From Sedimentisphaerales bacterium (lineage in GTDB: Bacteria > Planctomycetota > Phycisphaerae > Sedimentisphaerales > Anaerohalosphaeraceae): a DNA stretch of 33,481 bases. Under the pieces are notes generated by a model. The model saw only the letters and a list, made by a program, of their open reading frames with translations. It had not been told where the DNA came from and did not search any database. The stretch lies in contig JAFGQP010000214.1 of the NCBI GenBank assembly GCA_016935635.1, forward strand, positions 1 to 33,481. The letters are read 5' to 3'. The number at the start of each line of letters is the position of its first letter. Positions within the stretch are counted from its first letter, which is position 1. Shown here one piece after another: positions 2,080-33,481 of the stretch. Made by a program: the position numbers and the translations under genes.

Positions 2080-4551
2080 GTGTATTCAATAAAAAAGACC
2101 GTAAAATACCAGTTCATATTGATTGTGTCGTTACTGTATACATGTGTCTGCATAGCGTCGGAATCCCAGGGAACCATTAAAATGGTTCCGTTTCAACAGG
2201 TAAAAATGGATGATGTGATCTGGGCGCCGCGTATCAAGATGCTGGTTGGGGAGACGCTGCCTCATGCCTTTACCCAGACGGAAGTGGCCCAGCGGCGGCT
2301 GCGGATGTGCGCTGAATACCTGGAAAACAAAGGCGGTCCCAAGCCTGAAGCGCATCGGTTTAATACGTCGGACCTTTATAAAGTTATGGAGGGGGCGGCG
2401 CTGATGATTGCCGCTGAGCCGAATCCCGAGATCGGGGCCACTATGGATCGCATTATCGATATTATTGCAAGGGCTCAGCAGGCGGATGGCTACCTGTATG
2501 TTTCGCATATCTGCGGCAATCCGATTGTGGAGGAGATGGGGCCTCGTCCTTACAGTTATGTGCTCCACAGTCATGAGCTTTATAATGTGGGGCATCTGTA
2601 TGAAGCGGCCGTGGCGTATGCTCAGGCGACCGGCAAGACCAAACTGCTGGATGTTGCGGAAAAGAGTGCCCGGCATATCAACAAGGCATTCTTTGAGGGA
2701 GATCCCAACTATAATGACGGCAAGCCCGTCAACCAGGCGCCGGGGCATGAGGAAATCGAGCTGGGGCTGATGAAGCTGTATAATTATACGGGCAAGCGGC
2801 TGTATCTGGATATGGCCAAGCGTTTTCTGGATATCCGCGGGGTGACGTATATTCCGGACGGGACGGGGGTGAATTCGCCGACGTATGCCCAGCAGCACGC
2901 GCCGGTGGCCAAACAGACCGAGGCGGTGGGTCATGCGGTTCGCGCGACGTATTTATATGCGGCTATGGCCGAGGCGGACAGTCTTCTGGGTTCGACGGAT
3001 TACAGCTTTGCCCTGGATTCCATCTGGCACAATATTGTGGATACGAAGATGCATATTACCGGCGGGCTGGGGGCGGTGCACGGGATTGAGGGATTCGGGC
3101 CGTCGTATGAGCTGCCCAACAAGGATACATATCTGGAAACCTGTGCGGCGGTGGGGAATGTGTTTTTCAATATGCGGATGTTTTTGAAATATCATGATGG
3201 CAAATATGCGGATGTGGCGGAGGCGGCGCTGCTGAATAACTGTCTGTCGGGGGTGGGGCTGGACGGCAAGAGCTTTTTCTATCCGAATCCGCTGGAGGCC
3301 GATTATGGTCACGGTCCCCGTTCCGGCTGGTTTGGTACCGCGTGCTGTCCGTCTAATATCGCACGTTTGATCCCGCAGATTCCCGGCTATATGTACGCGA
3401 CCGATGGCAAACAGCTTTATACGGTGCTTTACGGCAGCAGCCGGACCGCGGTTGAACTGAACGGGATGAAGGTTGCATTAAGGCAGACGACGGATTATCC
3501 GTATTCGGGGGAGATTGGGTTGCAGGTTGATCCGCAACAGGCGGTTCGGTTTAAATTGAATCTTCGGATTCCGACGTGGGCGGGCAGTCAATTGGTGCCC
3601 GGTCGGCTGTATGCGTACAGCGAGCCGTCTTCGGGATGGACGGTTGAGGTTAATGGTCAAGGCATTCGGCCTGAGGTCGAAAAAGGTTTTGCGGTGATCG
3701 AGCGGGTCTGGAACCCGGGGGATCGAATTAGCCTGAAGCTGCCGATGCCGCTGAAGGCCAATACCTGCATCGAGCAGGTTGCGGCCAATCGCGGGCGAGT
3801 GTCCTTTTCGCGCGGGCCGCTGGTGTATTGTGCCGAAGGCATCGATAACGGCGGGGCGGTGCAGCGTTTTTATGTTGATCCGACGAAAGCGAAGACCGGA
3901 GCCAAAACGCAGACGATTGACTCCGGTGTTCTGGCGGGATTAACAGAAGTGACAATCCCGGCGAAGGAATTATCAGGCCCTGATCGGACATTCAAAGACG
4001 CTACGCTGAAGCTGATTCCGTATTTTGCCTGGAGCAATCGGGACCGCAGTTCAATGATTACATGGATTGGTACAAAAGAAGAACTGGCCAAACCCGATCC
4101 TCGCGATCCGGCCAATATAAAATATGCGTCCGTGACGGCATCGCATACCTGTGACAGTGACACGGTCGATGCGATCCGAATGGATCAAACGCCAAAGTCG
4201 TCTTCGGATGGTTCTATTCAGCGATGGACCAGCTGGCCGCAGACCGGTCAATCCCAGTGGGTAGAAATCGGCCTTGGCGAGGTCAAGCAGATCCGCAACG
4301 TTGGTGTCTATTGGTACAATGATAATGGCGGCGTTCAGTTGCCCGGTGAATGGTATCTGCAGGCACCGTCTGATTCCGGCTGGAAAAAGATTGAGATATA
4401 CAACACAGATCAATACAGCACGCTGGTTGACAACTACAACACAGTCCATCCGGCACAGTCGCTTAAAACAGACAAAATTCGTATCGTTATGAAGCCGCGG
4501 CACAACGATACCTGCGTTGGAATCCTTGCTGTTAATATCGAAACCAAGTGA
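2080..4551 (+). CDS. GH127/GH146-type (DUF1680) beta-L-arabinofuranosidase-like protein with signal peptide and C-terminal discoidin-like region
   Basis: FNTSDLYKVMEGAA, HELYNVGHLYEAAVAY, GHEEIELGLMKLY, YLETCAAVGN, FFYPNPLE, GTACCPSNIARLIPQIPGY, typical of the DUF1680/GH127 fold. GTG start preceded by an AGAAAGGA-like RBS. Confidence 0.9.
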   Translation: MYSIKKTVKYQFILIVSLLYTCVCIASESQGTIKMVPFQQVKMDDVIWAPRIKMLVGETLPHAFTQTEVAQRRLRMCAEYLENKGGPKPEAHRFNTSDLYKVMEGAALMIAAEPNPEIGATMDRIIDIIARAQQADGYLYVSHICGNPIVEEMGPRPYSYVLHSHELYNVGHLYEAAVAYAQATGKTKLLDVAEKSARHINKAFFEGDPNYNDGKPVNQAPGHEEIELGLMKLYNYTGKRLYLDMAKRFLDIRGVTYIPDGTGVNSPTYAQQHAPVAKQTEAVGHAVRATYLYAAMAEADSLLGSTDYSFALDSIWHNIVDTKMHITGGLGAVHGIEGFGPSYELPNKDTYLETCAAVGNVFFNMRMFLKYHDGKYADVAEAALLNNCLSGVGLDGKSFFYPNPLEADYGHGPRSGWFGTACCPSNIARLIPQIPGYMYATDGKQLYTVLYGSSRTAVELNGMKVALRQTTDYPYSGEIGLQVDPQQAVRFKLNLRIPTWAGSQLVPGRLYAYSEPSSGWTVEVNGQGIRPEVEKGFAVIERVWNPGDRISLKLPMPLKANTCIEQVAANRGRVSFSRGPLVYCAEGIDNGGAVQRFYVDPTKAKTGAKTQTIDSGVLAGLTEVTIPAKELSGPDRTFKDATLKLIPYFAWSNRDRSSMITWIGTKEELAKPDPRDPANIKYASVTASHTCDSDTVDAIRMDQTPKSSSDGSIQRWTSWPQTGQSQWVEIGLGEVKQIRNVGVYWYNDNGGVQLPGEWYLQAPSDSGWKKIEIYNTDQYSTLVDNYNTVHPAQSLKTDKIRIVMKPRHNDTCVGILAVNIETK

Positions 4552-7600: not shown

Positions 7601-9338
7601 ACAGTCTGGCTACGATGACGCCGGCTGGCTGTCCGGGGCCGGGCTTTTGTACGTTAAACCGTCCGATTTGCCGGAGCCGAAGAATACGCTTCTGATGCTT
7701 GGCCCGAGGACATTTTATTTCCGGACACATTTCAACTTTCCATCTGCTCCGTCGGTCTATGAGTCAGTTGAACTGAAGTTGTCAACGATACTGGATGACG
7801 GGGCGGTGGTCTACTTGAATGGCCAGGAGGTTTTTCGGCTTGGTGTTTCTGAAGGACAGACACACAGCTCTCTTTCCAGCCGGCTTGTCGGGGATGCGGT
7901 TGTTGAAGGGCCATTCGTGATTCCGTCAGATAATCTGGTCCAAGGTGATAATATTCTGGCTGTTGAGGTCCATCAGCAGTCCGACAGCAGCAGCGATGTT
8001 GTGTGGGGCTGTCAATTGCAGGCGATAGTAACAATTCAGACGGCTGGTCAAACGCTTCAACCGGAACAGCATCTTGTGATTTGTAAAAATGCCGAGGCAT
8101 TTGCAGAGCGGTATGATTTAACGGGTATTCTAATTGCAGACGGAAACTATACCGGTAATTTGAGTAATTCTGGCGAGATGATCAACCTCGAAGACATGAC
8201 CGGTTCGACTATTCAGAGCTTTTCGTATAAAGACGGCTGGTATCCCGTGACCGACGGTGGTGGATTTTCGTTGACGGTCATTGACACAACAGCCGCGAAT
8301 GACCTCAGTAAAAAATCCAGTTGGAAACCCAGCAGCACATTAGGCGGCTCGCCGGGCCAGGCCGACACCGGTTCAATCCCGCTGCCGGGTTCGATTGTGA
8401 TTAATGAATTGCTTGCCCACTCCCATGATGTGGCTCCGGACTGGATCGAACTTTACAATACGACCGACCAGCCCATCAATATCGGGGGATGGTACATCGG
8501 TGACAGCGGTTCTACCGACGAAGCTCTGATGAAATATCAAATTCCGCTGGGTACGATCATCCCGGCGTATGGATTTGCGGTTTTTTATGAAGAAACGGAT
8601 TTTACGGACTTTGCGTTCAGTGTAAACGGGGAAACCGCATATCTGACGTCCGCGGTCGATGGCCAATTAGGCAGCTATCGCATCAGCGAAAGTTTCAGCG
8701 CCTCGCCTACCGGTATCGCATTCGGGCGTTACTATAAAGCCAGCACCGACAGTTATAATTTCGTGCTGATGAGTACGAATACGCCCGGAGCCGCCAATGC
8801 TTATCCGTTGGTTGGCCCCCTTGTCATCAGTGAAATCATGTACCATCCGCCCCAGTTAAAAGACGCTGAATATGTTGAACTGCTGAATATCAGCAATGAA
8901 ACGGTACACCTATATGATGTGGCCAAAGGGGCTGGCTGGAAATTCGCTGACGATGGCGGCTTTGAGTTTTACTTCCCGGCCGACTCAGCTATCGCACCCG
9001 GCGAACGGATTCTCATTGTTAAAAATCCTGTGGCTTTTGCCAGTGAATTTACCGCCGCTGCAGGGACCCAGATATTTGCGTGGAGCGGGGACGGCAACTT
9101 GAGCAATTCCGGCGAGGAAATCCAATTGTCGATGCCTGGCGATATTGACAGCGAGGGCACACGCTATTATATTCGGATTGACCGGGTCGTCTACAGCGAC
9201 GGCTCTCACCCGGAGGACGCGGACCCGTGGCCTGTTGCCGCCGATGGCAATGGACAGTCGTTGCATCGCATCGACCATAATGCTTATGGCAATGATGTCC
9301 TCAACTGGACCGCTGCGGCACCAACGCCGGTTATGTAG
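4638..9338 (+). pseudogene. Giant secreted CotH-kinase-like protein with N-terminal dockerin-like repeats and several lamin-tail domains; interrupted by one in-frame TAA at 6702..6704
   Basis: ORFs 4638..6704 and 6762..9338 are in the same frame (offset 2124 = 708 codons). Translation across the stop is ...RRLRTVLDE*LQAPTTPANERKLEAYINQMIAQIG..., with no frameshift. Part 1: dockerin-like GDLNRDLRIDLSDLMIFAEQWL, lamin-tail domain, CotH motifs (RIRGASS, KQSLKLEF, WYLLPWDQDLGWG). Part 2: lamin-tail domains and a jelly-roll. Confidence 0.8.
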
Positions 9339-13700: not shown

Positions 13701-16157
13701 ATGTGTAAAAATCTACTTATTATTGTGGTTGTTTTCTTAGGAATTGGTATTTGCTCTGCTAAGTCTAATGCCCAGTTATCTCAGGTGGCTGACAGGTCGA
13801 GTCGACAAGAAACCGATTACCCATTTAAACCGGTGCCGTTTACCAAGGTGCAGTTTACGGACGACTTCTGGCTGCCGCGTATCGAGGTAAATCGTACGGC
13901 CACGATTCCATTTGCTTTTAAGATGTGCGAAGACACTCATCGGATCGAAAACTTTAAGGTCGCCGGCGGCCTGTCCGATAAGAAGTGGCAGGGGGCGTAC
14001 GGGTTTAATGACAGCGACCTCTATAAAGTCATTGAAGGCGCTGCTTATGCGATGATGGTTAAGCCCGACCCACAACTGCAAAAGTACGTTGATGAGATCA
14101 TCTCTTATATCGCCGCCGCCCAGGAAGACAATGGTTACCTGTATACTGCCTGGACGGCTCGGGCAAAAGACCACCTGGATAACGTCTGGTGTTGTTATAA
14201 TAAAGAACCGTGGGACAATCTGGAATTTGCTCATGAGTTATACAACGTGGGGCATATGTATGAAGCGGCTGCAGCGCACTATGCAGCAACGGGCAAACGA
14301 ACATTTTTGAATGTTGCGATTAAAAACGCAGATTTAGTCTGCGAGACGTTTGGTCCTGGGAAAAATGAAGGGGTGCCTGGACACCAGGAGATAGAAATCG
14401 GCCTGGTAAGATTATACCGTGCAACAGGCGATGAAAAATACCTCACCCAGTCACGCTGGTTCCTCGACCGTCGTGGACGAGCAAAAGGCTCAGAATACTC
14501 ACAGGGCCATAAGCCTGTTGTCGAACAGGATGAAGCGGTTGGCCACGCTGTACGGGCTACCTATATGTACAGTGCCATGGCAGATGTCGCAGCCCTGACC
14601 GGTGAACAGGCATTTGTTAAAGCCGTTGATACGTTATGGGACAATGTGACTCATAAAAAGTTCTATGTCACGGGTGGTATTGGTGCCAGACACAGCGGTG
14701 AGGCGTTTGGTGAGATTTATGAATTGCCCAATCGCACGGCCTATTGTGAGACTTGTGCGGCGATTGCAAATGTGTTCTGGAATCACCGTATGTTCCTGTT
14801 CCACGGTGAATCAAAATATCTTGATATCATGGAACGTTCGCTTTACAACGGCGTGATCAGCGGTGTGTCACTGGATGGGATGACCTTTTTCTATCCGAAT
14901 CCACTTGAAACCGCTTCCGGCATAGACCGCAGTCCATGGTTTGGATGTGCCTGCTGTCCCAGTAATATCTGCCGGTTCATGGCGTCGTTGCCGGGCTATG
15001 CGTATGCAGTGCGAAATGATGAAGTCTATGTCAACCTCTTCGTCGACAGCAAGGCTGAATTTGACGTTGACGGCAAGCCGGTTAAGGTGTCGCAGGAAAC
15101 ATTGTACCCATGGCAAGGCAAGATTGCGATCACAGTCACGCCCCAGAGCAAAGCTCAGCAGTTTTCTCTGAACGTTCGAATTCCCAGTTGGGCGAAGGAC
15201 CAGCAACCCGTTTCAAAGCTTTATACGTTTACAGAACCGGTTGAAGCAAAAATAACCATCTCGGTTAATGGTAAAGATGTCCCTGTCAATATCACCAATG
15301 GATTCGCTTGCATTAATCGAAAGTGGAAACAGGGAGATCTTGTCGAACTGAACCTTCCGATGCCTGTCCGCCGGATCATATGTGATGAGCAGGTTGACGC
15401 TAATATTGGAAGATCTGCCATACAGCGCGGACCGATTGTCTATTGCGTTGAATGGCCGGATGTTGAAAATAACAATCCGCTGAATCTCGTATTGCCCAAA
15501 GATGCAACCCTTACCGCTGAACATAAGCCGGATCTGCTGGGCGGCGTTACGGTTCTTGAGGGCAAGGCCACTGAAGTACGCAGAATAGTTGACAGTGAAG
15601 ACTATGAGCGTAAAACATGCGATTTTAAAGCGATTCCTTATTATGCTTGGTCGCATCGAGGTAAAGGAGCAATGACTGTATGGCTTCCCTATACTGAAAA
15701 AATGGCTACTCCCCTGCCTGCTCCTACCATTGCTTCCCAGAGCAAGGTGACGGTATCAAATATGGTGGGCGGTGACAATTCACTCAAAGCGATTAATGAC
15801 CAGCAAGTGCCCAAAGCCTCCAGTGACAAATCGTTTGGCATCATGCATTTCTGGCCGCGAAAGGGAACGGCCGAGTGGATTCAGTATACATTTGAGGAAC
15901 CGGCTCAGGTTTCCAGCGTTGCAGTATTCTGGTTTGATGATCGTGGCCATGGTGAGTGCAGAATACCTAAATCGTGGGTGTTGAAATACCGTGAAGATGG
16001 CCAGTGGAAGGGAATTGAAAACTTCAGCGATTACAAAGTAACACGGGATGATTTTGATCGTATTAGCTTTGTTCCGGTCACTACCGATGCATTGAGGCTT
16101 GAATTTCAGTTGGAGGACAATTTCTCAACCGGTATCCAAGAGTGGATTGTAGAGTAA
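13701..16157 (+). CDS. GH127/GH146-type (DUF1680) beta-L-arabinofuranosidase-like protein with C-terminal discoidin-like region
   Basis: FNDSDLYKVIEGAAYAMM, HELYNVGHMYEAAAAHY, GHQEIEIGLVRLYR, YCETCAAIANVFWN, FFYPNPLE, GCACCPSNICRF; signal peptide. Confidence 0.9.
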   Translation: MCKNLLIIVVVFLGIGICSAKSNAQLSQVADRSSRQETDYPFKPVPFTKVQFTDDFWLPRIEVNRTATIPFAFKMCEDTHRIENFKVAGGLSDKKWQGAYGFNDSDLYKVIEGAAYAMMVKPDPQLQKYVDEIISYIAAAQEDNGYLYTAWTARAKDHLDNVWCCYNKEPWDNLEFAHELYNVGHMYEAAAAHYAATGKRTFLNVAIKNADLVCETFGPGKNEGVPGHQEIEIGLVRLYRATGDEKYLTQSRWFLDRRGRAKGSEYSQGHKPVVEQDEAVGHAVRATYMYSAMADVAALTGEQAFVKAVDTLWDNVTHKKFYVTGGIGARHSGEAFGEIYELPNRTAYCETCAAIANVFWNHRMFLFHGESKYLDIMERSLYNGVISGVSLDGMTFFYPNPLETASGIDRSPWFGCACCPSNICRFMASLPGYAYAVRNDEVYVNLFVDSKAEFDVDGKPVKVSQETLYPWQGKIAITVTPQSKAQQFSLNVRIPSWAKDQQPVSKLYTFTEPVEAKITISVNGKDVPVNITNGFACINRKWKQGDLVELNLPMPVRRIICDEQVDANIGRSAIQRGPIVYCVEWPDVENNNPLNLVLPKDATLTAEHKPDLLGGVTVLEGKATEVRRIVDSEDYERKTCDFKAIPYYAWSHRGKGAMTVWLPYTEKMATPLPAPTIASQSKVTVSNMVGGDNSLKAINDQQVPKASSDKSFGIMHFWPRKGTAEWIQYTFEEPAQVSSVAVFWFDDRGHGECRIPKSWVLKYREDGQWKGIENFSDYKVTRDDFDRISFVPVTTDALRLEFQLEDNFSTGIQEWIVE

Positions 16158-16337
16158 ATGTCAAAATTCGGGACATTGACAGATTAGCGGACCGTCTCGG
16201 TAACTGGATGAAATAAAATATGGTGTCGTTAAATGACACATTTGAGAAAAATGCCTGCTACTGTGACACAACTGAACCGATGGCAGCTGGATGGTCCCAG
16301 GTGCAAAAAATATCAAAGCAATGAACAGGAGAACAAA

Positions 16338-18446
16338 GTGAAACAGTACAGCATTAAAATGCTTGTTGGCGTGATCGTAATGATCTGTCTGGTGCCGTGT
16401 ATTGTACTCGCCGCAAAGAAAAACATCGCGTCGCAGGACACGCTCTACACCTTCAACCGGGCCCCTCTAAAGGCCAAGCCCTACGCGGAACTGCCGCTGG
16501 GAACGATCAGGCCGGACGGCTGGCTCAAGGATGAACTGCAGCGCATGGCCAAAGGAATGACGGGAAATCTTGATCAGTGGTACCCGGAAGTCTGCGGCCC
16601 GCGAAATGCCTGGCTTGGCGGCGACGGCGATACATGGGAACGCGGCCCGTATTGGATCGATGGCCTGTACCCGCTGTCCTATCTGCTGGACGACAAAGCC
16701 CTTCAGGCCAAGGCCAAGAAGTGGGTCGAGTGGACACTGGAAAACCAGCGTGAAGATGGATACATTGGACCGGTTGAGTTAAAAGATGAAGACCGAACGA
16801 TACCGCCGCCACGTGGTGCTCAAATTATCGAACCTGGTGACTGGTGGCCTCGTATGGTCATGCTCAAAATACTCCAGCAGCAGTACCTGGCCACCGGCGA
16901 CGAGCGTGTCATTGAAGTCATGAGCAAGTACTTCAAGTACCAGCTCAAAACACTTCCCGGTGCGCCCCTGAAAGCCCCAGACGGTGGCAAGGGCGGAAGT
17001 TGGTGGGCCGAACAGCGCGGCGGCGACAACCTGATGAGCGTTCTGTGGCTCTACAACATCACCGGCGAAGAATGGCTGCTGGAACTAGGCGATTTGCTTT
17101 ACAAGCAGACACTGCCCTGGACGGACTTGTTCCTGAAGGGCGATGCCCTCAAGCAGCAATTGGATCAACCCGGCGGTCCGGTGCTCCACTGTGTCAACCT
17201 GGCCCAAGGCATCAAAACCCCCATTATTCGCTATCAGCAGGATAAGGACAACAAGCAGATCGAGGCAACACACCTCGCTTTCCGTGATATCCGCAATCAC
17301 CAGGGCCAACCGCACGGTCTCTACGGCGGCGACGAATATATGCATGGCTCCGGTCTGGATCGCGGCAGCGAATTGTGCAGTGCGGTCGAAATGATGTTCT
17401 CGCTGGAAAAGATGTTTGAGATTACCGGTGATGTATCCTTTGCTGATCTCATCGAAAGGATTGCGTTCAATGCTTTGCCAACCCAGGTTACCGATGATCA
17501 TCATGCCCGTCAGTACTTCCAGCAGTCCAACCAGGTCGAGTGTACTTGGGGGGATCGGTCTTTTGGCGACGATGGCGGCTCCCGTATTGTATACGGCCTG
17601 CTGCACGGCTATCCCTGCTGTACCTGCAACTATCATCAGGGCTGGCCCAAGTTTACCCAGCACCTCTGGATGGCTTCGGCAGACAAGGGTCTGGTTACCA
17701 TGGCGTACGCTCCCTGCAGCGTCACCGCCAAGGTTGCAGACGGTCAACAGGTAACGATCACCGAAGAAACCGTATATCCGTTTGAAGAAACCATTCGTTT
17801 TACGGTCAAAACAGATAAGTCCGTCGCGTTTCCGCTGCATCTGCGTGTTCCCGGCTGGTGCCAACAGGCCGTGATTACCGTTGATGGCGAACCCGGTCCT
17901 AAAGCGGCTGCAGGTCAAGTGGCAATCGTCAACCGCACCTGGAAGTCTGGCGATCGCGTTGAACTGAAACTGCCGATGCAGTTACGCAGATCATACTGGT
18001 ACGAACGCAGCGCATCCATCGAACGCGGCCCACTGGTCTATGCACTTCGCTTGGAAGAAAACTGGTCCGAGGTTAAACATCCGGCGCCTGAGGGCGTTCC
18101 GGCTGAGGCTATGCATCGTGGCTATCGCGAATGCCGGACGACACAGGACTGGAACTATGCACTCTTTGAAGAAACGCTGAACAACCTCAACAAAGAGGTC
18201 AAGGTTGTGACCAAAAACTCCGTCGCGGCGAATCCCTGGAATCTGGAAAACGCCCCGATCGAACTTCAGATGCCGGCAGTGAAGCTCTCAGACTGGACGC
18301 TCTATCGTGGCTCAGCCGGCCCGGTCCCGAGAAGCCCTGCAACTCGTTTCCGTGACGGAAAAGTCGAGACCATCCGCCTGATCCCATACGGATGCACAAC
18401 CCTGCGGATTACCGGCTTCCCATGGATCGACGGCGCCCCTGATTAA
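16338..18446 (+). CDS. Divergent GH127-like (DUF1680-related) secreted protein
   Basis: ORF opens at 16233, but the GTG at 16338 follows an AGGAGA RBS and begins a signal peptide (VKQYSIKMLVGVIVMICLVPCIVLA). Motifs GSELCSAVEMMFSLEKM, YPCCTCNYHQGWPKFTQHLWM, RNYVxRGPLVYALR-like region (SIERGPLVYALRLEE). Confidence 0.8.
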   Translation: MKQYSIKMLVGVIVMICLVPCIVLAAKKNIASQDTLYTFNRAPLKAKPYAELPLGTIRPDGWLKDELQRMAKGMTGNLDQWYPEVCGPRNAWLGGDGDTWERGPYWIDGLYPLSYLLDDKALQAKAKKWVEWTLENQREDGYIGPVELKDEDRTIPPPRGAQIIEPGDWWPRMVMLKILQQQYLATGDERVIEVMSKYFKYQLKTLPGAPLKAPDGGKGGSWWAEQRGGDNLMSVLWLYNITGEEWLLELGDLLYKQTLPWTDLFLKGDALKQQLDQPGGPVLHCVNLAQGIKTPIIRYQQDKDNKQIEATHLAFRDIRNHQGQPHGLYGGDEYMHGSGLDRGSELCSAVEMMFSLEKMFEITGDVSFADLIERIAFNALPTQVTDDHHARQYFQQSNQVECTWGDRSFGDDGGSRIVYGLLHGYPCCTCNYHQGWPKFTQHLWMASADKGLVTMAYAPCSVTAKVADGQQVTITEETVYPFEETIRFTVKTDKSVAFPLHLRVPGWCQQAVITVDGEPGPKAAAGQVAIVNRTWKSGDRVELKLPMQLRRSYWYERSASIERGPLVYALRLEENWSEVKHPAPEGVPAEAMHRGYRECRTTQDWNYALFEETLNNLNKEVKVVTKNSVAANPWNLENAPIELQMPAVKLSDWTLYRGSAGPVPRSPATRFRDGKVETIRLIPYGCTTLRITGFPWIDGAPD

Positions 18447-25760: not shown

Positions 25761-26198
25761 ATGCGTCAGCATACGATTGTGTTGGGTGTCATTGGTTCTG
25801 ATTGCCATGCCGTAGGCAATAAAATTCTGGAACGTTATTTTGCAAACGCTGGTTTTAATGTAATTAACCTTGGCGTTATGGTTAGCCAGCAGGAATTCAT
25901 TGATGCAGCAATTGAAACCAATGCCAATGCGATTCTGATATCATCTCTGTACGGACAGGGTGAATTGGATTGCGAAGGCTTGCGGGGGCGTTGTATTGAA
26001 GCAGGTCTGGAAAATATTGTTCTATATGTAGGAGGCAATCTTGTCATTGGCAAGAAGGATTTTTCAGCCATAGAAAGGAAATTTCAACGGATGGGTTATG
26101 ATCGTATCTTTAAGCCGGATGCGGACCTGGAACAGGTGACATTGCTTTTACGACAGGACATTGACTCTTTGCAATCTGTGCAAGAGAACCGTATATGA
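25761..26198 (+). CDS. glmS: Glutamate mutase sigma (S) subunit, B12-binding
   Basis: B12-binding signature GSDCHAVGNKIL (DxHxxG); VSQQEFIDAAIETNANAILISSLYGQGELDCEGLR; YVGGNLVIGK. RBS AGGAGA upstream. Confidence 0.93.
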   Translation: MRQHTIVLGVIGSDCHAVGNKILERYFANAGFNVINLGVMVSQQEFIDAAIETNANAILISSLYGQGELDCEGLRGRCIEAGLENIVLYVGGNLVIGKKDFSAIERKFQRMGYDRIFKPDADLEQVTLLLRQDIDSLQSVQENRI

Positions 26199-27652
26199 CA
26201 CATTCCCATGTCCGGCATGAAGACAAGGTAATCAGCCTTGATATTGGATCAACATTTACCAAAGCAGCCTTATTCAATGTTGGCCCGGAAACATTGGTTC
26301 TTGAGAAAATGGCCATGGTTCCAACCAATCCTGCATCATTGCCTGACAGTGTATATCAGGTATTGAAGTGTTTCGGGTGTCTTGAAGTTAACAATCAAAA
26401 ACCCTCTTATCCCGTCTATTTTTCTTCGTCAGCAAAGGGGGGGCTGTACATCATAGCGGTCGGGATCGTCCCGAATATGACATTGAAAGCCGCCAGGATC
26501 ACAGCCATGTCGGCGGGTGCCAAGGTTACTCAGGCTTATGAGTACAAGCTGACCCTGGATAATATCCGTCAGATTCAACAATTATGCCCAGACATTATCC
26601 TGTTGTGCGGAGGTACAGATGGAGGTAATGAAACGCATATTCGACACAATGCCGGGCTTTTAGCTGGTCTTCAAATCAGGCCGGAAATTATTTATGCGGG
26701 AAATAAGGTGATGCGGGATGAAGTGTCGGCAATTCTATCACAATTTTCATTATATTATGCTGACAACATATTGCCTGAACTGGATCACATATCGCCAGAC
26801 TCTGCACGTCAAACCATCCAGGATGTATTTCTAAAACACATTATTACCGGAAAAGGACTTGGCGATATTGTTCAACTGGCCAGCCGGGAGCCGCTACCGA
26901 CGCCTTTGGCAGTGATGGAACTGGTTGAAGCCATTTCATCCCATCGAACGGATTGGAGTGATTTTTGTGTTATCGACATGGGCGGAGCCACGACAGACTT
27001 TTATTCATGCTGCGAGGGGTATCCCGGCGAAGGAGGAGTTTTGTATCGGGGACTAATGGAGCCGAGAATCAAAAGGACTGTCGAAGGGGAGTTGGGGATG
27101 AGAATCAATGCTGCTTCAGTTTTACTGGCCGGCAGTGGTATTCTCCAAAATATGAAAAATACAGATGAATTAATGGCGATACAGGACTATGCCTATAAAG
27201 TCATGGATCAGACGTCTTATGTGCCCGACAATCCTGTTGAGAAGTCTTATGATCGTATGATTGCGGATATTTGTATCACGCAGGCGGCCGAACGTCATGT
27301 AGGGTACCGCAAGCGTATCTTCACGGGATCCGGCGAAAGTTTTATTCAGACAGGAAAAGATCTCAGAAGTGTGTCGAAAATTGTATTTACCGGGGGCTTT
27401 TTAAGTCAATGTGCCGATGAGGGCCTGGCAATGCTGATTGCTTCCCGCTGGAAACAGCCTCGACAATCCAAATCGGAATATATTTATTTATATCCGCAGA
27501 AATATTCAATATATCAGGACAAATCCTATTTGATTCCTTTGCTGGGCAATCTTGTCCGGGATTACCCGATTCAGGTGGTTCATACAGCAATCAACAGCTT
27601 GACTGATTTGCCAATACCGACAAAAAACACAATGGAGAACATATGGTCGTAG
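26195..27652 (+). CDS. glmL: GlmL/MutL-like protein (glutamate mutase reactivation/chaperone, ASKHA-type)
   Basis: SLDIGSTFTKAALFNV ASKHA phosphate motif; LLCGGTDGGN; VIDMGGATTDFYS. Lies between the S and E genes with ATGA overlap. Confidence 0.9.
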   Translation: MTHSHVRHEDKVISLDIGSTFTKAALFNVGPETLVLEKMAMVPTNPASLPDSVYQVLKCFGCLEVNNQKPSYPVYFSSSAKGGLYIIAVGIVPNMTLKAARITAMSAGAKVTQAYEYKLTLDNIRQIQQLCPDIILLCGGTDGGNETHIRHNAGLLAGLQIRPEIIYAGNKVMRDEVSAILSQFSLYYADNILPELDHISPDSARQTIQDVFLKHIITGKGLGDIVQLASREPLPTPLAVMELVEAISSHRTDWSDFCVIDMGGATTDFYSCCEGYPGEGGVLYRGLMEPRIKRTVEGELGMRINAASVLLAGSGILQNMKNTDELMAIQDYAYKVMDQTSYVPDNPVEKSYDRMIADICITQAAERHVGYRKRIFTGSGESFIQTGKDLRSVSKIVFTGGFLSQCADEGLAMLIASRWKQPRQSKSEYIYLYPQKYSIYQDKSYLIPLLGNLVRDYPIQVVHTAINSLTDLPIPTKNTMENIWS

Positions 27653-29088
27653 TCAGTGAAAAAATTGACATGACGGAGTTTCAAAAAGAAAGAAAAGAGG
27701 TGCTGGAAACCTGGTCGACGGGAAGCATGATTGACTTGGCCGAGGGGATTGAATTTCAGAAGAATCTTTCTGAGTCGAAGCGTTTTTCTCTAGTCATGAA
27801 AAATGCTCAGGAAAATGGATTGCTTTTGCTTCAACCGCGGGCAGGCGTCGCCCTTGTGGATGAACATATCAAGCTGCTGAGCCGGCTTGAAAACTACTGT
27901 GATTTACTGCCGACAACTATTGACGCGTATACCCGTCAAAATCGTTATCAAGATGCCCAGAGAGGAATTGAACGATCTGTCAAATCAGGACAGTCCATGC
28001 TCAATGGCTTTCCCGCCGTGAATCACGGGCTTGAGGCCTGCCGCAGGGTGGTTCAAGCGGTTCATAAGCCCCTGGAGGTGCGGCACGGGACTCCGGATGC
28101 CCGGCTGCTGGCTGAAATTACACTAGCCGGGGGGTTTACCGCTTTTGAGGGAGGGGGGATTTCTTATAATATTCCCTATGCCAAAAAAGTACCGCTGGAA
28201 ACATCAATTCGCCATTGGCAATACGTAGATCGACTTGTCGGATTTTATCAAGAAGAGAGGATTACGATCAACAGGGAGCCTTTTGGACCGCTTTCCGGAA
28301 CGCTGATTCCTCCATTTATCAGCCACGCTGTTGCAATTCTGGAAGGGTTGCTTGCTCTGGAGCAGGGTGTCGTTTCACTTACATTGGGCTATGGGCAGTT
28401 GGGCAATCTGATACAGGATGTCGCTGCGATACGAAGTCTGCGTGAGCTGGCGGATGAATATTTCCAGCGATTCGGTTACACTAATTATGAATTGACTACA
28501 GTTCTGCATCAATGGATGGGCGGTTTTCCAGAAAAAGAGACGCAGGCGTATTCAGTTATAGCTTGGGGCGGAGCAGTGGCTGCTCTATCAGGGGCGACAA
28601 AAGTCATTATCAAGACACCCCACGAGGCATCAGGAATACCAACCTGCGAGGCCAATATTCAGGGCCTGGAAGCGACACGCCAGATAACCAATATGCTCAA
28701 GGATCAATATCTCCCAGATTCGCGTGAATTGAGTATTGAGACAGAAATAATCAAGCAGGAAGTGCGGGCTGTTTTGGATTCAGTATTCGATCTTGGCCAG
28801 GGCAATATAGCCGCAGGAGCGGTTCGAGCTTTTCAGGCCGGTGTTATCGATGTGCCATTTTCACCTTCGATTTACAACAAGGGCAAAATGCTTTCAATTC
28901 GTGATAATGTAGGTGCAATTCGAGTCTTGGAAAAAGCGGAAGTGCCCCTGCCGGAATCCGTTTATAAATATCATGCTGATAAAATTCAACAAAGAGCTTG
29001 TGCTGAAGGCCGCCAACCCTGTTTTCAAATGGTGGTTGACGATATTTATGCGATCAGCAAGGGACGACTGGTGGGGAGACCTCGATGA
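27643..29088 (+). CDS. glmE: Glutamate mutase epsilon (E) subunit
   Basis: LLQPRAGVALVDEHIKLL, GFPAVNHGLEACRRVV, RHGTPDARLLAEITLAGGFTAFEGGGISYNIPYAKKVPLE, GYGQLGNLIQDVAAIRSL, HQWMGGFPE. Confidence 0.94.
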   Translation: MVVVSEKIDMTEFQKERKEVLETWSTGSMIDLAEGIEFQKNLSESKRFSLVMKNAQENGLLLLQPRAGVALVDEHIKLLSRLENYCDLLPTTIDAYTRQNRYQDAQRGIERSVKSGQSMLNGFPAVNHGLEACRRVVQAVHKPLEVRHGTPDARLLAEITLAGGFTAFEGGGISYNIPYAKKVPLETSIRHWQYVDRLVGFYQEERITINREPFGPLSGTLIPPFISHAVAILEGLLALEQGVVSLTLGYGQLGNLIQDVAAIRSLRELADEYFQRFGYTNYELTTVLHQWMGGFPEKETQAYSVIAWGGAVAALSGATKVIIKTPHEASGIPTCEANIQGLEATRQITNMLKDQYLPDSRELSIETEIIKQEVRAVLDSVFDLGQGNIAAGAVRAFQAGVIDVPFSPSIYNKGKMLSIRDNVGAIRVLEKAEVPLPESVYKYHADKIQQRACAEGRQPCFQMVVDDIYAISKGRLVGRPR

Positions 29089-30335
29089 ATATAAAAAAAG
29101 TATTGTTTTCCACCGGCTATACCGGGTTTTTCTCTGATGATCAGGCAGCAATCAAGTCCGGCTTAAAGCAGGATGGATTTTTTTATCAGGGCGGGGCGGT
29201 CACGGCCGGCTTTAAGCAGGTACGACAGGCTGGAGAATCCATATCTGTTTTATTAGTTCTTGAGAATGGACAGACAGCAGTTGGAGATTGTGCGGCCGTT
29301 CAATATTCCGGGGCAGGGGGGCGCGACCCCTTGTTTACGGCACACTCTTATATTTCAGTGCTGGAAAAGTATGTCAGGCCGATGCTTGAATGTGCTTCGG
29401 TAAACTGTTTTCGGGAACTGGCGGACCGTATCGATCGCGTATTGGTTGAAGGTCGGCAATTGCATACCGCTTTGCGTTACGGAATTACACAGGCGATTCT
29501 GGATGCAGTTGCCAAAGCTCATCAAAAGACCATGACTGAAATTATTTGGCAGGAATATAATTTGCCATCTATCATAAAACCCGTTCCTTTATTTGGTCAA
29601 AGCGGTGATGATCGCTACCTTGCTGCTGATAAAATGATTCTCAAACAGGTCGATGTGCTGCCTCACGCTTTGATTAATAATATCGAAAGCAAATTAGGCA
29701 TGGATGGCAAAAAGCTTAAAGATTATATTATATGGCTGCGTGAGCGAATTTTACATAATAGATTCAGTTCATCTTACCATCCGACACTGCATATTGATGT
29801 CTATGGGACGATAGGAATGATATTTAATTATGATATCTCCAGAATCGCGACATATCTGGCTGAGCTGGAGAAGGCGGCTCGCCCATTTGATCTTTACATC
29901 GAAGGGCCTGTGGATGTCGGTCACAAGCAGCGGCAGATAGATATGCTTTTAAAGATTCGAAAAGAACTGGATAATATCGGCTGCAAAGTGAAAATCGTGG
30001 CGGATGAATGGTGCAATACCTATGAGGATGTTCGGGATTTTAGCGACAGTCGATGCTGCCACATGGTTCAGATCAAGACGCCGGACCTGGGAGGCATTCA
30101 ACATATTGTCGAAAGCGTCTTGTATGCGAAAAGACACGGCATGGAGGCCTATCAGGGCGGGACATGTAACGAGACGGACATTTCCGCAAAGATATGTGTG
30201 CATCTGGCGCTGGCTGCCGGTGCAGATCGAATGCTTGCCAAGCCGGGAATGGGTTTCGATGAAGGTTTTTGCATTGTGAAAAATGAAATGGAACGGACAC
30301 TGAAGCTGTTAAGCCTTAAATATGGAAACGAATGA
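29085..30335 (+). CDS. Methylaspartate ammonia-lyase
   Basis: IKPVPLFGQSGDDRY, HIDVYGTIG, LYIEGPVDVGHK, KIVADEWCNTYEDV, MVQIKTPDLGGIQHI, AYQGGTCNETDISA; enolase-superfamily MAL signature. ATGA overlap with glmE. Confidence 0.94.
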   Translation: MNIKKVLFSTGYTGFFSDDQAAIKSGLKQDGFFYQGGAVTAGFKQVRQAGESISVLLVLENGQTAVGDCAAVQYSGAGGRDPLFTAHSYISVLEKYVRPMLECASVNCFRELADRIDRVLVEGRQLHTALRYGITQAILDAVAKAHQKTMTEIIWQEYNLPSIIKPVPLFGQSGDDRYLAADKMILKQVDVLPHALINNIESKLGMDGKKLKDYIIWLRERILHNRFSSSYHPTLHIDVYGTIGMIFNYDISRIATYLAELEKAARPFDLYIEGPVDVGHKQRQIDMLLKIRKELDNIGCKVKIVADEWCNTYEDVRDFSDSRCCHMVQIKTPDLGGIQHIVESVLYAKRHGMEAYQGGTCNETDISAKICVHLALAAGADRMLAKPGMGFDEGFCIVKNEMERTLKLLSLKYGNE

Positions 30336-31702
30336 TGAGCAATAGAGAGTTTAAAATACTGTCTCCCACCGCCATCCTTGGATATGGTTTCCCGGAGTCA
30401 TCCTTTCTTCAGGGTATAAAGGAAAATCCCGATCTAATCGCAGTTGATGCCGGCTCGGTGGATCCGGGCCCTTATTATCTCGGCTCGGGAAAATCCTTTA
30501 CGGACCGAGTTGGGGTCAAACGCGATTTGCGGATTATGCTCAGAGAAGCCATTCCCCGTAAAATACCCGTTATTATTGGTTCGGCCGGCGGCTCAGGAGC
30601 AAAGCCTCACCTGGACTGGTGTGAGCAGATTATCCGGGAGATTGCCCGTCAGGAAAGGCTGTCCTTTAAAATGGGTATAATTCCCGCTGACATCGATAAG
30701 TCCCTGGTTTGCAAATCCATTCAGGAAAACAAAATTCATCCCTTGTGCAAGAATAAACCTCTGACCGAACAGACTGTTGAGGAAACCAGCTATATTGTAG
30801 CTCAGATGGGAACAGAACCTTTTGTGGAAGCGCTGCGGCAGGATTGCCGGGTGATCCTTGCCGGCAGGGCGTATGATCCGGCAGGATTTGCTGCGTTGCC
30901 TGTTCTGCTTGGCTATAATCCTGCTCTTGCGATTCATCTTGGTAAAATTCTTGAGTGTGCCGCGATTGCCGCCCAACCGGGATCCGGCGCCGACTGTGCA
31001 CTGGGTATTTTGAAAGAAAACTCATTTGTGCTCAAACCGCTGAATATGAAGAGGTCTTTTACCAGAACGTCTGTTGCGGCTCATTCGCTGTATGAAAAAT
31101 CCGATCCATATTGTCTGCCAGGACCAGGCGGGGCATTGGATTTGCGTGAAGTGGAATTCACGGAAATAGGCGATGGACAGGTTGAAGTCAAAGGCACACA
31201 TTTTATTCCGGCAAATCCTTATACGCTCAAACTGGAAGGAGCCCGTCAGGTCGGATACCGTACAGTTAGCATTGCGGGAAGCAGGGATCCGGTTATGATC
31301 GCCGGCATTAATTCCATTCTTAAGGCTGTTGAGATGCATGTGAAAGAAATTCTCGAAAATGAAAAAATTGACGGTTATGTCAATACACATATCTATGGCA
31401 AAAATGCCGTCATGGGAGAACTGGAGCCTAATCCTTCCATAACAAGTCATGAGATCGGCATTCTGCTTGAAGCTGTGGGAAAAACGCAGGAAAACGCCAA
31501 TACGATATGCTCTATTATGCGATCGACCCTGCTGCATTATGGATACCCCGGCAGGATTTCGACCGCCGGCAATCTGGCTTTCCCATTTTCGCCTTCCGAT
31601 ATTCAAACGGGGGCAGTCTATGAGTTTTCCATTTATCATCTGATGGAAGTGTCTCAAGACCAGCTCAAAAGATTATTTCCGGAAAGCGTTGTCCAGATAT
31701 GA
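30332..31702 (+). CDS. AtuA-like (DUF1446) family protein
   Basis: SVDPGPYYLGSGKSF, PVIIGSAGGSGAKPHLDW, GRAYDPAGFAALPVLLGYNPALAIHLGKILECAAIAAQPGSGADCALG; C-terminal SNIxxPFSPSDI-like region. ATGA overlap with the MAL gene. Confidence 0.8.
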   Translation: MMSNREFKILSPTAILGYGFPESSFLQGIKENPDLIAVDAGSVDPGPYYLGSGKSFTDRVGVKRDLRIMLREAIPRKIPVIIGSAGGSGAKPHLDWCEQIIREIARQERLSFKMGIIPADIDKSLVCKSIQENKIHPLCKNKPLTEQTVEETSYIVAQMGTEPFVEALRQDCRVILAGRAYDPAGFAALPVLLGYNPALAIHLGKILECAAIAAQPGSGADCALGILKENSFVLKPLNMKRSFTRTSVAAHSLYEKSDPYCLPGPGGALDLREVEFTEIGDGQVEVKGTHFIPANPYTLKLEGARQVGYRTVSIAGSRDPVMIAGINSILKAVEMHVKEILENEKIDGYVNTHIYGKNAVMGELEPNPSITSHEIGILLEAVGKTQENANTICSIMRSTLLHYGYPGRISTAGNLAFPFSPSDIQTGAVYEFSIYHLMEVSQDQLKRLFPESVVQI

Positions 31703-31711
31703 GGAGGTTCA

Positions 31712-32029
31712 ATGCAAAAACAAATAACCGAACTGGCTAAAGTCATCCGAAGTAAAAATTGCAGCCCGTTTGAGCTGACTATGGATATTATCTTCCTTGA
31801 AAAAGCAGATTATGAGTTGGTAAAAAAAAATAATGGAATTAATGCAAAAATGTTGGCGGCAATTTATAATGTATGCCCGACAAAGATAAACAAAGTAGTT
31901 TATTTTGATCCGGCCTGTGCCGTGAAAATCTGCATGGACAGACCTATTTCATCAGGAGCGCCGGGAGATACCGATGTCTATGGTGCTCAGCAACATGGGC
32001 CTTTGTTGTCGATCTTGCTGGATATATAG
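31712..32029 (+). CDS. DUF4387-like small protein (AtuA-associated)
   Basis: About 105 aa: LAKVIRSKNCSPFELTMDIIFLEKADYELVKKNNGINAKMLAAIYNV...DVYGAQQHGPLLSI; immediately follows the AtuA-like gene; RBS GAGGAGG. Confidence 0.75.
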   Translation: MQKQITELAKVIRSKNCSPFELTMDIIFLEKADYELVKKNNGINAKMLAAIYNVCPTKINKVVYFDPACAVKICMDRPISSGAPGDTDVYGAQQHGPLLSILLDI

Positions 32030-32039
32030 GAATCAGAAT

Positions 32040-32975
32040 ATGTTACGGATGCCGATTAAAGACACTCTGGTATATGCCAGTTATTACGCTCCGCGAGGCC
32101 GTAGACGAATGTATATTCTGGGAAGTCAGCTTTCCCAGAAATATTTGTACCCATCCGATTTGATTATTGGGGTAATAGGCAACGAAGGTTCCGGGAAATC
32201 CACGCTGATTAAAGGCTTATTCCCCGGTCTGGAACTGACTAATGATGATGAGGGTGTTAATCTTCGGCCTTGTCCGATTTTTAATTTCTCAGAGGATGAT
32301 TTCTTTTCCGGCCATACATTTCATCTTGATATTCGCTACGAATCCGCTTTTCGGCAAAAATTCGAAATTGTGGATGCCATCAACAAAGCCCTGTCGTTTG
32401 AGAGGCGTGTCATAATTGAACATTTTGAATTAATATATGACCAGTTAGGTTATAATGCGCAGGTATTGTTTGGTATTGGTGAAGAAGTTCGTGTTTACAG
32501 ACCCTCGATATTCGGCCCCTCTCCGCATGCTGTCAAAAAAAGAACTGAAGAGGGATTGCGATACCGGCAGATGGCACATTCCGCCGAAGACCTTGTTCAA
32601 TTCATTCTCAGTAGAGATCATGGCTTTGTGCCATCTGTTTTGCATTCTGATGTTCGGCATGGGTTTGTCATTGGTTTTCCGCAAAAACCGGATATGGATT
32701 TGAATAGTATTGAACAAAAAGTGCTCGAAATGATATATCAGGATATTCCGATCACGCCTGACAAGGGGGATTATATCCGTGCCGGCAATAACAGAATATA
32801 CTGTACCGGAAAACGCATTCATGTCAAATCTGCCGGGCAGATTGAGAATTTTCGATTGGTAAAGGAATTTATTTACGACAAAATATCAGGGCAATATCTG
32901 CTGGTGGGAATTGTCGGAAATCGAACTGGCCAAGATGATTTCGATCAAAAAGGTCTGATCGCTAGTTCTGTGTAA
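32040..32975 (+). CDS. P-loop NTP-binding protein with C-terminal AlaRS second-additional-domain-like motif
   Basis: Walker A GVIGNEGSGKSTLIKG; C-terminal YCTGKRIHVKSAGQIENFRLVKEF resembles the AlaRS SAD pattern CGGTHVxNTGEIGxFKIxxE. Start chosen at the ATG 11 nt after the DUF4387 stop rather than the ORF-track start at 31974. Confidence 0.65.
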   Translation: MLRMPIKDTLVYASYYAPRGRRRMYILGSQLSQKYLYPSDLIIGVIGNEGSGKSTLIKGLFPGLELTNDDEGVNLRPCPIFNFSEDDFFSGHTFHLDIRYESAFRQKFEIVDAINKALSFERRVIIEHFELIYDQLGYNAQVLFGIGEEVRVYRPSIFGPSPHAVKKRTEEGLRYRQMAHSAEDLVQFILSRDHGFVPSVLHSDVRHGFVIGFPQKPDMDLNSIEQKVLEMIYQDIPITPDKGDYIRAGNNRIYCTGKRIHVKSAGQIENFRLVKEFIYDKISGQYLLVGIVGNRTGQDDFDQKGLIASSV

Positions 32976-33069
32976 ATCGCTCTATAGATACATGATATTG
33001 GTTGTTAAAGAGTAAAATCTAGGCCAAGTACACCTCAGCAAAAATAATGGCCGCCAGCCATTTGACTTG

Positions 33070-33481
33070 TCAGGCGACTCCGGCGGGCAATTCTTTGGTG
33101 ATGACAGCCTCTTTAGAGGGTAATTTCGGCGGTGTCCAACGGGACGGCAGCAACGCGTCGATCTGATGAGCGGCCACGTTGTAACCTTTTTCAGCACATC
33201 ATGGAGCGAACGGGTCATGCCCATCAGTTTGCAGCTGGCCACCAGGCTGTAAATGATGGCGGCTCTCTCGGCTCCCGCTTCACTGCCGGCAAACAGGTAG
33301 TTCTTGCGTCCGACGACCACCATTCGCAAGGTTCTTTCCGAGAGATTGTTATCGATGCTCAGACGCGGGTCACTCGTGTACCGGACCAGAGCATCCCATT
33401 GATTTAAGGCATAGTGAATGGCCTTGCTCATCAGGCTTTTCGGAAGCACCTGAGGTAGCCAACTTATGAGTTGCCCTTAAA
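33070..33481 (-). pseudogene. IS66-family transposase C-terminal remnant, frameshifted and partial
   Basis: VLPKSLMSKAIHYALNQWDALVRYTSDPRLSIDNNLSERTLRMVVVGRKNYLFAGSEAGAERAAIIYSLVASCKLMGM...LHDVLKKV, then a +1 shift gives ...HQIDALLPSRWTPPKLPSKEAVITKELPAGVA*. An in-frame stop also lies just upstream of VLPKSL at the window edge. Confidence 0.85.

Follow-up and report, generated by a model that had tools for sequence, protein, structure and literature searches.

At positions 32040-32975 on the forward strand of the window, the whole 33,481-nucleotide stretch of Sedimentisphaerales DNA analysed here, lies an open reading frame for a 311-aa product with the N-terminus MLRMPIKD. The start at 32040 is favoured by homologues, and an upstream in-frame ATG at 31974 would overlap the preceding gene, which encodes a DUF4387 protein. 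The product, referred to below as the fusion protein, is encoded by the last gene of an operon with the order GlmS-MutL-GlmE-MAL-AtuA-DUF4387-fusion gene, in which all genes share one strand and either overlap slightly or are narrowly spaced. This order agrees with the original prediction, made from the sequence alone, that the gene closes a co-oriented operon for 3-methylaspartate. The genes of the operon are as follows.

25761..26198, forward: GlmS, B12-binding subunit of glutamate mutase (Pfam B12-binding, 1.4e-14)
26195..27652, forward: MutL/GlmL, reactivation factor (Pfam MutL, 5e-121)
27643..29088, forward: GlmE, catalytic subunit of glutamate mutase (Pfam, 2.8e-208)
29085..30335, forward: methylaspartate ammonia-lyase, MAL (Pfam MAAL_C, 5.9e-115)
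30332..31702, forward: AtuA family protein (Pfam, 9.5e-21)
31712..32029, forward: DUF4387 protein (Pfam, 7.2e-34)
32040..32975, forward: TsaE-like/SAD fusion gene (311 aa), last gene of the methylaspartate-pathway operon

Judging by its motif, we take the N-terminal part of MutL/GlmL to be actin-like (ASKHA). A C-terminal piece of an IS66 transposase (32982-33449, reverse strand) lies 6 bases past the stop of the fusion gene, at the contig end. The first 22 kb of the window form a separate region, apparently devoted to sugar degradation, with three genes of the GH127 beta-L-arabinofuranosidase type (2080-4551 and 13701-18446) and, near them, genes for two DUF6055 proteins, an aldose epimerase and lamin-tail/CotH proteins. 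PADLOC returned marginal P-loop matches and nothing else.

The family of the fusion protein reaches five phyla. Genome searches identified full-length relatives in Planctomycetota (77% and about 65% identity), Spirochaetota (54-63%), Propionivibrio (54%) and Clostridia (about 47-52%), and homologues in Peptoclostridium acidaminophilum and Prevotella nigrescens were found through plasmid records. Research on glutamate fermentation via glutamate mutase goes back decades, but despite its strong conservation the protein is labelled 'hypothetical protein' in the two annotated records seen, those of P. acidaminophilum and P. nigrescens. Our searches of the open literature did not find a description of a P-loop/SAD fusion.

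Conservation is concentrated at particular positions. No substitution occurs among the 29 sequences at K53, S54, D97, E127-H128, H180, A182, E183, D204, C255 or R259. D184, H202 and H261 are each shared by 28 sequences, Prevotella being the exception at all three. The P. nigrescens homologue (L114, 9992-10936) is the most divergent member, with the changes D184->E, H202->F and H261->Q; it retains the P-loop, but with these residues its site may have lost the ability to bind metal. A family remnant on contig L055 of genome G715 (about 8386-8676, reverse strand) consists only of a stretch of about 97 residues from the C-terminal SAD region and looks like a decayed gene; a search of the same genome for GlmE found none.

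The P-loop and SAD-type domains

The combination of domains in the fusion protein is new, but its parts are known: a domain of the P-loop ATPase type and a domain of the SAD type. Both are familiar from translation quality control, and here they are combined in a metabolic operon. The features of the two domains are as follows.

32040..32519, forward: N-terminal P-loop domain (residues 1-160), predicted TsaE/YjeE-like fold (AF2 and Foldseek)
32178..32201, forward: Walker A motif GNEGSGKS (residues 47-54), with K53 and S54 invariant in 29 homologues
32328..32330, forward: D97 of an HxDxR motif, aligned with HxDxYR of TsaE, invariant
32418..32423, forward: E127-H128, aligned with E108-W109 of TsaE, invariant
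32517..32924, forward: C-terminal SAD-type domain (about residues 160-295; Pfam, profile and Foldseek comparisons)
32577..32591, forward: H180-S-A-E-D184, counterpart of the SAD HxxxH with Asp as the second His (profile alignment with AlaRS HTATH)
32643..32651, forward: H202-x-D204 of HSDVRHGF, conserved strand-region motif outside the HxxxH position
32802..32822, forward: C255-TGKRI-H261, counterpart of the SAD C-x-G-x-H with two extra residues (profile alignment)

The Walker A motif named in the original prediction was confirmed as G47-NEGSGKS-54, whereas the uridine-kinase-like fold suggested for the same domain gave way to a TsaE/YjeE-like one in structural comparison. For the full-length AF2 model (mean pLDDT 74.6), the top six PDB matches in Foldseek were all TsaE/YjeE (E 4e-5 to 5e-4, probability 1.00), followed by ThrRS and AlaX-M, which match the other half of the model; PRK structures (PF00485) were absent from the 50 best matches. 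The predicted strand-helix ahead of the P-loop strand also fits TsaE, and D97 and E127 align with the acidic residues of the TsaE HxD and IEW motifs. Profile comparison alone did not discriminate between the two folds, with probabilities of 93% for TsaE and 95% for uridine kinase/PRK that both depend on the P-loop, and the parts before and after the P-loop, compared separately by profile, showed no significant likeness to TsaE. The window protein scores 11.7-11.9 bits with the Pfam TsaE/YjeE model (PF02367), below its gathering threshold of 26.6, and PDB sequence searches returned mainly P-loop matches. The N-terminal domain is therefore best described as TsaE-like by predicted fold rather than as 'a TsaE'; sequence alone does not settle the fold.

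TsaE/YjeE is an ATPase of bacterial t6A biosynthesis, and in the E. coli protein the substitutions E108A and T43A abolish function, while W109A also loses activity (PMC4330362). The fusion protein shares with TsaE the predicted fold, the beta-alpha element before the P-loop strand, the Walker A motif and residues aligned with D80 and E108, but it falls under the Pfam cut-off, has His in place of W109, is fused to an SAD-type domain and is linked to glutamate fermentation. A separate canonical TsaE is present in nine of ten carrier genomes, so the fusion protein is not the t6A TsaE of its carriers; on the same grounds, we rejected the idea that it replaces the genome's own TsaE. The genome of the window (G000) differs from the other nine in that no canonical TsaE was found in its 87.6% complete assembly, an absence that is probably due to assembly incompleteness; in this one genome, replacement of TsaE by the fusion protein is conceivable. 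The carrier genomes also encode PRK/uridine-kinase proteins of about 560 aa that likewise combine a P-loop kinase-like domain with a synthetase-derived one, but in the reverse order and with another predicted P-loop fold, and their N-terminal region did not match the SAD profile of the fusion family (probability 18%).

The C-terminal domain is a genuine SAD-type domain and not a chance motif likeness. In a single-sequence Pfam scan, the window protein alone gave a weak tRNA_SAD match (PF07973; E 0.095, 13.1-13.3 bits against a gathering threshold of 24) together with sub-threshold P-loop matches. The Pfam model matches six of nine homologues (best E 1.3e-4), and one homologue, scored with neighbours in frame, reached 24.5 bits against the cut-off of 24. 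Profile-profile comparison with an SAD profile, built from a mixed set of 23 SAD sequences from carrier genomes, gave a probability of 97% (E 3e-10), and the reverse controls, the C-domain against TsaE and the N-domain against SAD, stayed under 1%. The predicted fold is likewise that of SAD: an AF2 model of the isolated domain (pLDDT 81, pTM 0.77) had as its 20 best PDB matches in Foldseek AlaX, AlaRS and ThrRS editing domains or designs built on them, with a TM-score of up to 0.64 (AlaRS).

The AlaRS/AlaX SAD-like motif that had been noticed at the C-terminus, C255-TGKRIHVKSAGQIENFRL, is present with the CxxxxxH (C-x5-H) spacing described for it. Profile alignment places HSAEDL onto HTATHL and CTGPRIHVKSTGxIENFRL onto CGGP--HVxxTGxIGxFKI. 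In place of the canonical HxxxH...CxxxH motif, the 29 sequences have an almost invariant HxxxD (H180, D184) and Cx5H (C255, H261), and the site as read from this alignment is H180/D184/C255/H261, that is, H/D/C/H instead of H/H/C/H. The domain had been called degenerate, which fits the altered metal-site motif but is too strong for a four-residue site that is remodelled and almost invariant. An upstream HSDVRH (H202) had been taken for a relic of the HxxxH motif; we ruled this out, as the alignment places HSDVRH in the following strand region and puts HSAED (H180...D184) on the AlaRS HTATH.

Homology to the AlaX, ThrRS and AlaRS editing domains raises the question of trans-editing, in which the SAD domain would hydrolyse tRNA mischarged with 3-methylaspartate or a related amino acid while the ATPase regulates or drives tRNA release. 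Such an activity would protect translation in cells that make bulk amounts of 3-methylaspartate, a non-protein amino acid, and the gene is linked to the part of the pathway that produces it. Like tRNA_SAD, AlaX, AlaRS and ThrRS, the fusion protein has the fold, the C-x-G-P...H-V-x-x-T-G signature, the site Cys and last His and the first His of HxxxH. However, D184 stands in place of the second His, two residues are inserted before the last His, and the stretch between the site halves is shorter, by about 27 residues relative to AlaRS. The predicted protein also has no synthetase body and no AlaX-type N-terminal beta-barrel, the P-loop domain standing where the barrel would be, and Prevotella has lost H261. 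Furthermore, many organisms with the methylaspartate pathway lack the gene, there is no linkage to translation genes, and mischarging with methylaspartate was not found in our literature searches. On balance, we consider trans-editing quite unlikely.

Association with the methylaspartate pathway

The survey of homologue neighbourhoods tied the family to glutamate mutase/MAL clusters, as anticipated in the original prediction. Of the 391 Clostridia genomes, the full gene is present in 13 and GlmE, scored over the cut-off, in 22, with both in 12 (Fisher P 4e-16); in the thirteenth carrier, the gene lies on a 7.8-kb contig (L049) beside MAL-AtuA-DUF4387. The corresponding numbers for 198 Spirochaetota genomes are 7, 14 and 5 (P 1.6e-5), and in the remaining two carriers there the gene lies on short contigs with MAL-AtuA. 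Mapped onto the GlmE tree, the presence or absence of the gene amounts to 4 changes, compared with a mean of 13 after shuffling and with 0 of 500 shuffles as low. This pattern is consistent with an old companion that was lost in Alphaproteobacteria, E. coli, classic Clostridia and Treponema-like Spirochaetes, where we infer the direction of change (loss) on an unrooted tree. These results strongly support a near-exclusive link of the gene to the GlmS-MutL-GlmE-MAL pathway. The family is real, has no name in the libraries searched, and belongs specifically to glutamate fermentation by the methylaspartate route.

The surroundings of the gene are variable beyond this core. The complete clusters share only GlmS-MutL-GlmE-MAL (with no separate GlmS apparent in L008), whereas the module for the step after citramalate differs among carriers. 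DUF4387 is the next gene upstream of the fusion gene in 17 loci; a CitC with CitDEF module occurs in 6, with a fused CitXG downstream in 5; two Planctomycetota loci (L007, L057) have a SucCD-like plus HpcH/CitE lyase module; and L054 has no citramalate module adjacent to the fusion gene. Since each module can be absent, we ruled out that the fusion protein serves AtuA-DUF4387 or citramalate lyase specifically, and the earlier suggestion of a maturation factor for the AtuA pair is unlikely for the same reason, the gene also being found in clusters of the CitCDEFXG and SucCD+CitE types without AtuA/DUF4387. Conversely, nine Clostridia genomes have complete GlmS-MutL-GlmE-MAL-FumAB-CitDEF clusters without the fusion gene. 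Thus, the fusion protein is not a necessary pathway enzyme, and an accessory role is parsimonious. The MutL of Propionivibrio (L008, 723-2567) is extended at its N-terminus by about 150 aa that match no Pfam family.

At five loci (L050-L053, L113), the gene stands between citC and citXG in an accessory operon (citC-X-citXG, X being the fusion gene) that diverges from the enzyme genes. This position speaks for an accessory role and against a catalytic one, and it would also suit a sensor or kinase: the SAD pocket would detect an intermediate of the pathway, and the P-loop domain would signal to or phosphorylate a target to regulate flux or expression. The small-ligand-binding ancestry of SAD domains and the invariant polar residues around the P-loop (T67, N68, D70, H95, D97, R123, E127, H128) point in the same direction. 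Nonetheless, the protein lacks DNA-binding and receiver domains as well as any known kinase acceptor domain, the clusters already contain GntR, LysR or AraC regulators, and the predicted fold is TsaE-like and not kinase-like. A sensor or kinase role therefore appears unlikely, if slightly less so than trans-editing.

One Spirochaetota genome (G987) departs from the usual arrangement: GlmS-MutL-GlmE-MAL-AtuA-DUF4387 is intact, with the fusion gene 0.5 Mb away, where it overlaps a class I fumarase gene (L123, 7408-10210). Fumarase genes also lie directly downstream of the fusion gene in other Spirochaetes and in Prevotella. This exception keeps mesaconase a candidate partner, and it weakens both a strict link to glutamate mutase and the case for MutL as partner. 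It is thus imaginable that the fusion protein matures or repairs the oxygen-sensitive mesaconase of the class I fumarase type, rather than glutamate mutase. However, no fumarase gene is adjacent in many Clostridia with AtuA-type clusters or in Planctomycetota, and the clusters of E. coli type and of classic Clostridia have class I fumarase without the fusion gene, so we regard a mesaconase factor as improbable. At the usual place of the fusion gene in G987, after DUF4387, are two genes without Pfam matches (L129, 11535-13324; 302 and 287 aa), which HMM and profile comparison ruled out as a divergent copy of it.

Possible roles of the fusion protein and of AtuA-DUF4387

The reading we prefer is that the fusion protein serves the anaerobic breakdown of glutamate via 3-methylaspartate as an accessory ATPase, and not as a catalyst, acting as a TsaE-type switch gated by its SAD-type domain; we put the probability of this reading at about 0.45, somewhat below even odds. 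TsaE itself has weak ATPase activity; it binds to the TsaD-TsaB pair, which has an actin fold, and uses ATP to reset that pair after turnover (PMC11648230). By comparison, the N-terminal domain of the fusion protein would be an ATP switch of the TsaE type that docks on a pathway protein and resets or quality-checks it. Binding of a small amino-acid-like ligand such as 3-methylaspartate or glutamate in the SAD pocket would gate the switch. Depending on the reading, the fusion protein would bear on the upkeep of B12 mutase activity or on protection against misuse of 3-methylaspartate.

By analogy with TsaD-TsaB, the most attractive partner would be the actin-like MutL; the class I fumarase (mesaconase) that adjoins the gene in Spirochaetes and Prevotella would be the alternative. 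Distance correlation names no partner, the values being 0.740 for MutL, 0.742 for GlmE and 0.734 for MAL. The narrower proposal, that a TsaE-type switch from tRNA modification and a synthetase editing domain now reading free 3-methylaspartate or glutamate were recruited for an ATP-driven reset of MutL/glutamate mutase, is a long shot. If true, the type of partnership seen in TsaE-TsaD would have a second instance, gated by a ligand and outside tRNA biology.

MutL/GlmL and MeaB, which reactivate or chaperone B12 mutases, resemble the fusion protein in that it, too, may be a nucleotide-driven helper of a B12 mutase pathway, but it is homologous to neither. A search of ten carrier genomes for MeaB gave weak P-loop-type matches only and no clear MeaB, and the fusion protein as a MeaB-like G-protein was ruled out on the basis of both observations. 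The cultured P. acidaminophilum DSM 3953 carries the gene in a complete plasmid record, which makes the question of its function directly testable.

A separate observation, drawn from window positions 30332-32029 and loci L007, L013, L137 and L138, concerns AtuA-DUF4387, which stands where other methylaspartate clusters have CitDEF, SucCD+CitE or CaiB+CoA ester lyase. Literature searches on AtuA/DUF4387 gave no useful result. Among 5426 complete E. coli genomes, 1105 (about 20%) match GlmE, and the one E. coli GlmE cluster inspected lies beside cydAB and lacks the fusion gene. The E. coli cluster contains AtuA-DUF4387 and fumarase without citramalate lyase, and the fate of citramalate in E. 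coli has been reported as unknown (PMC4682846). We consider AtuA-DUF4387 a candidate for cleaving citramalate or for a step equivalent to this.
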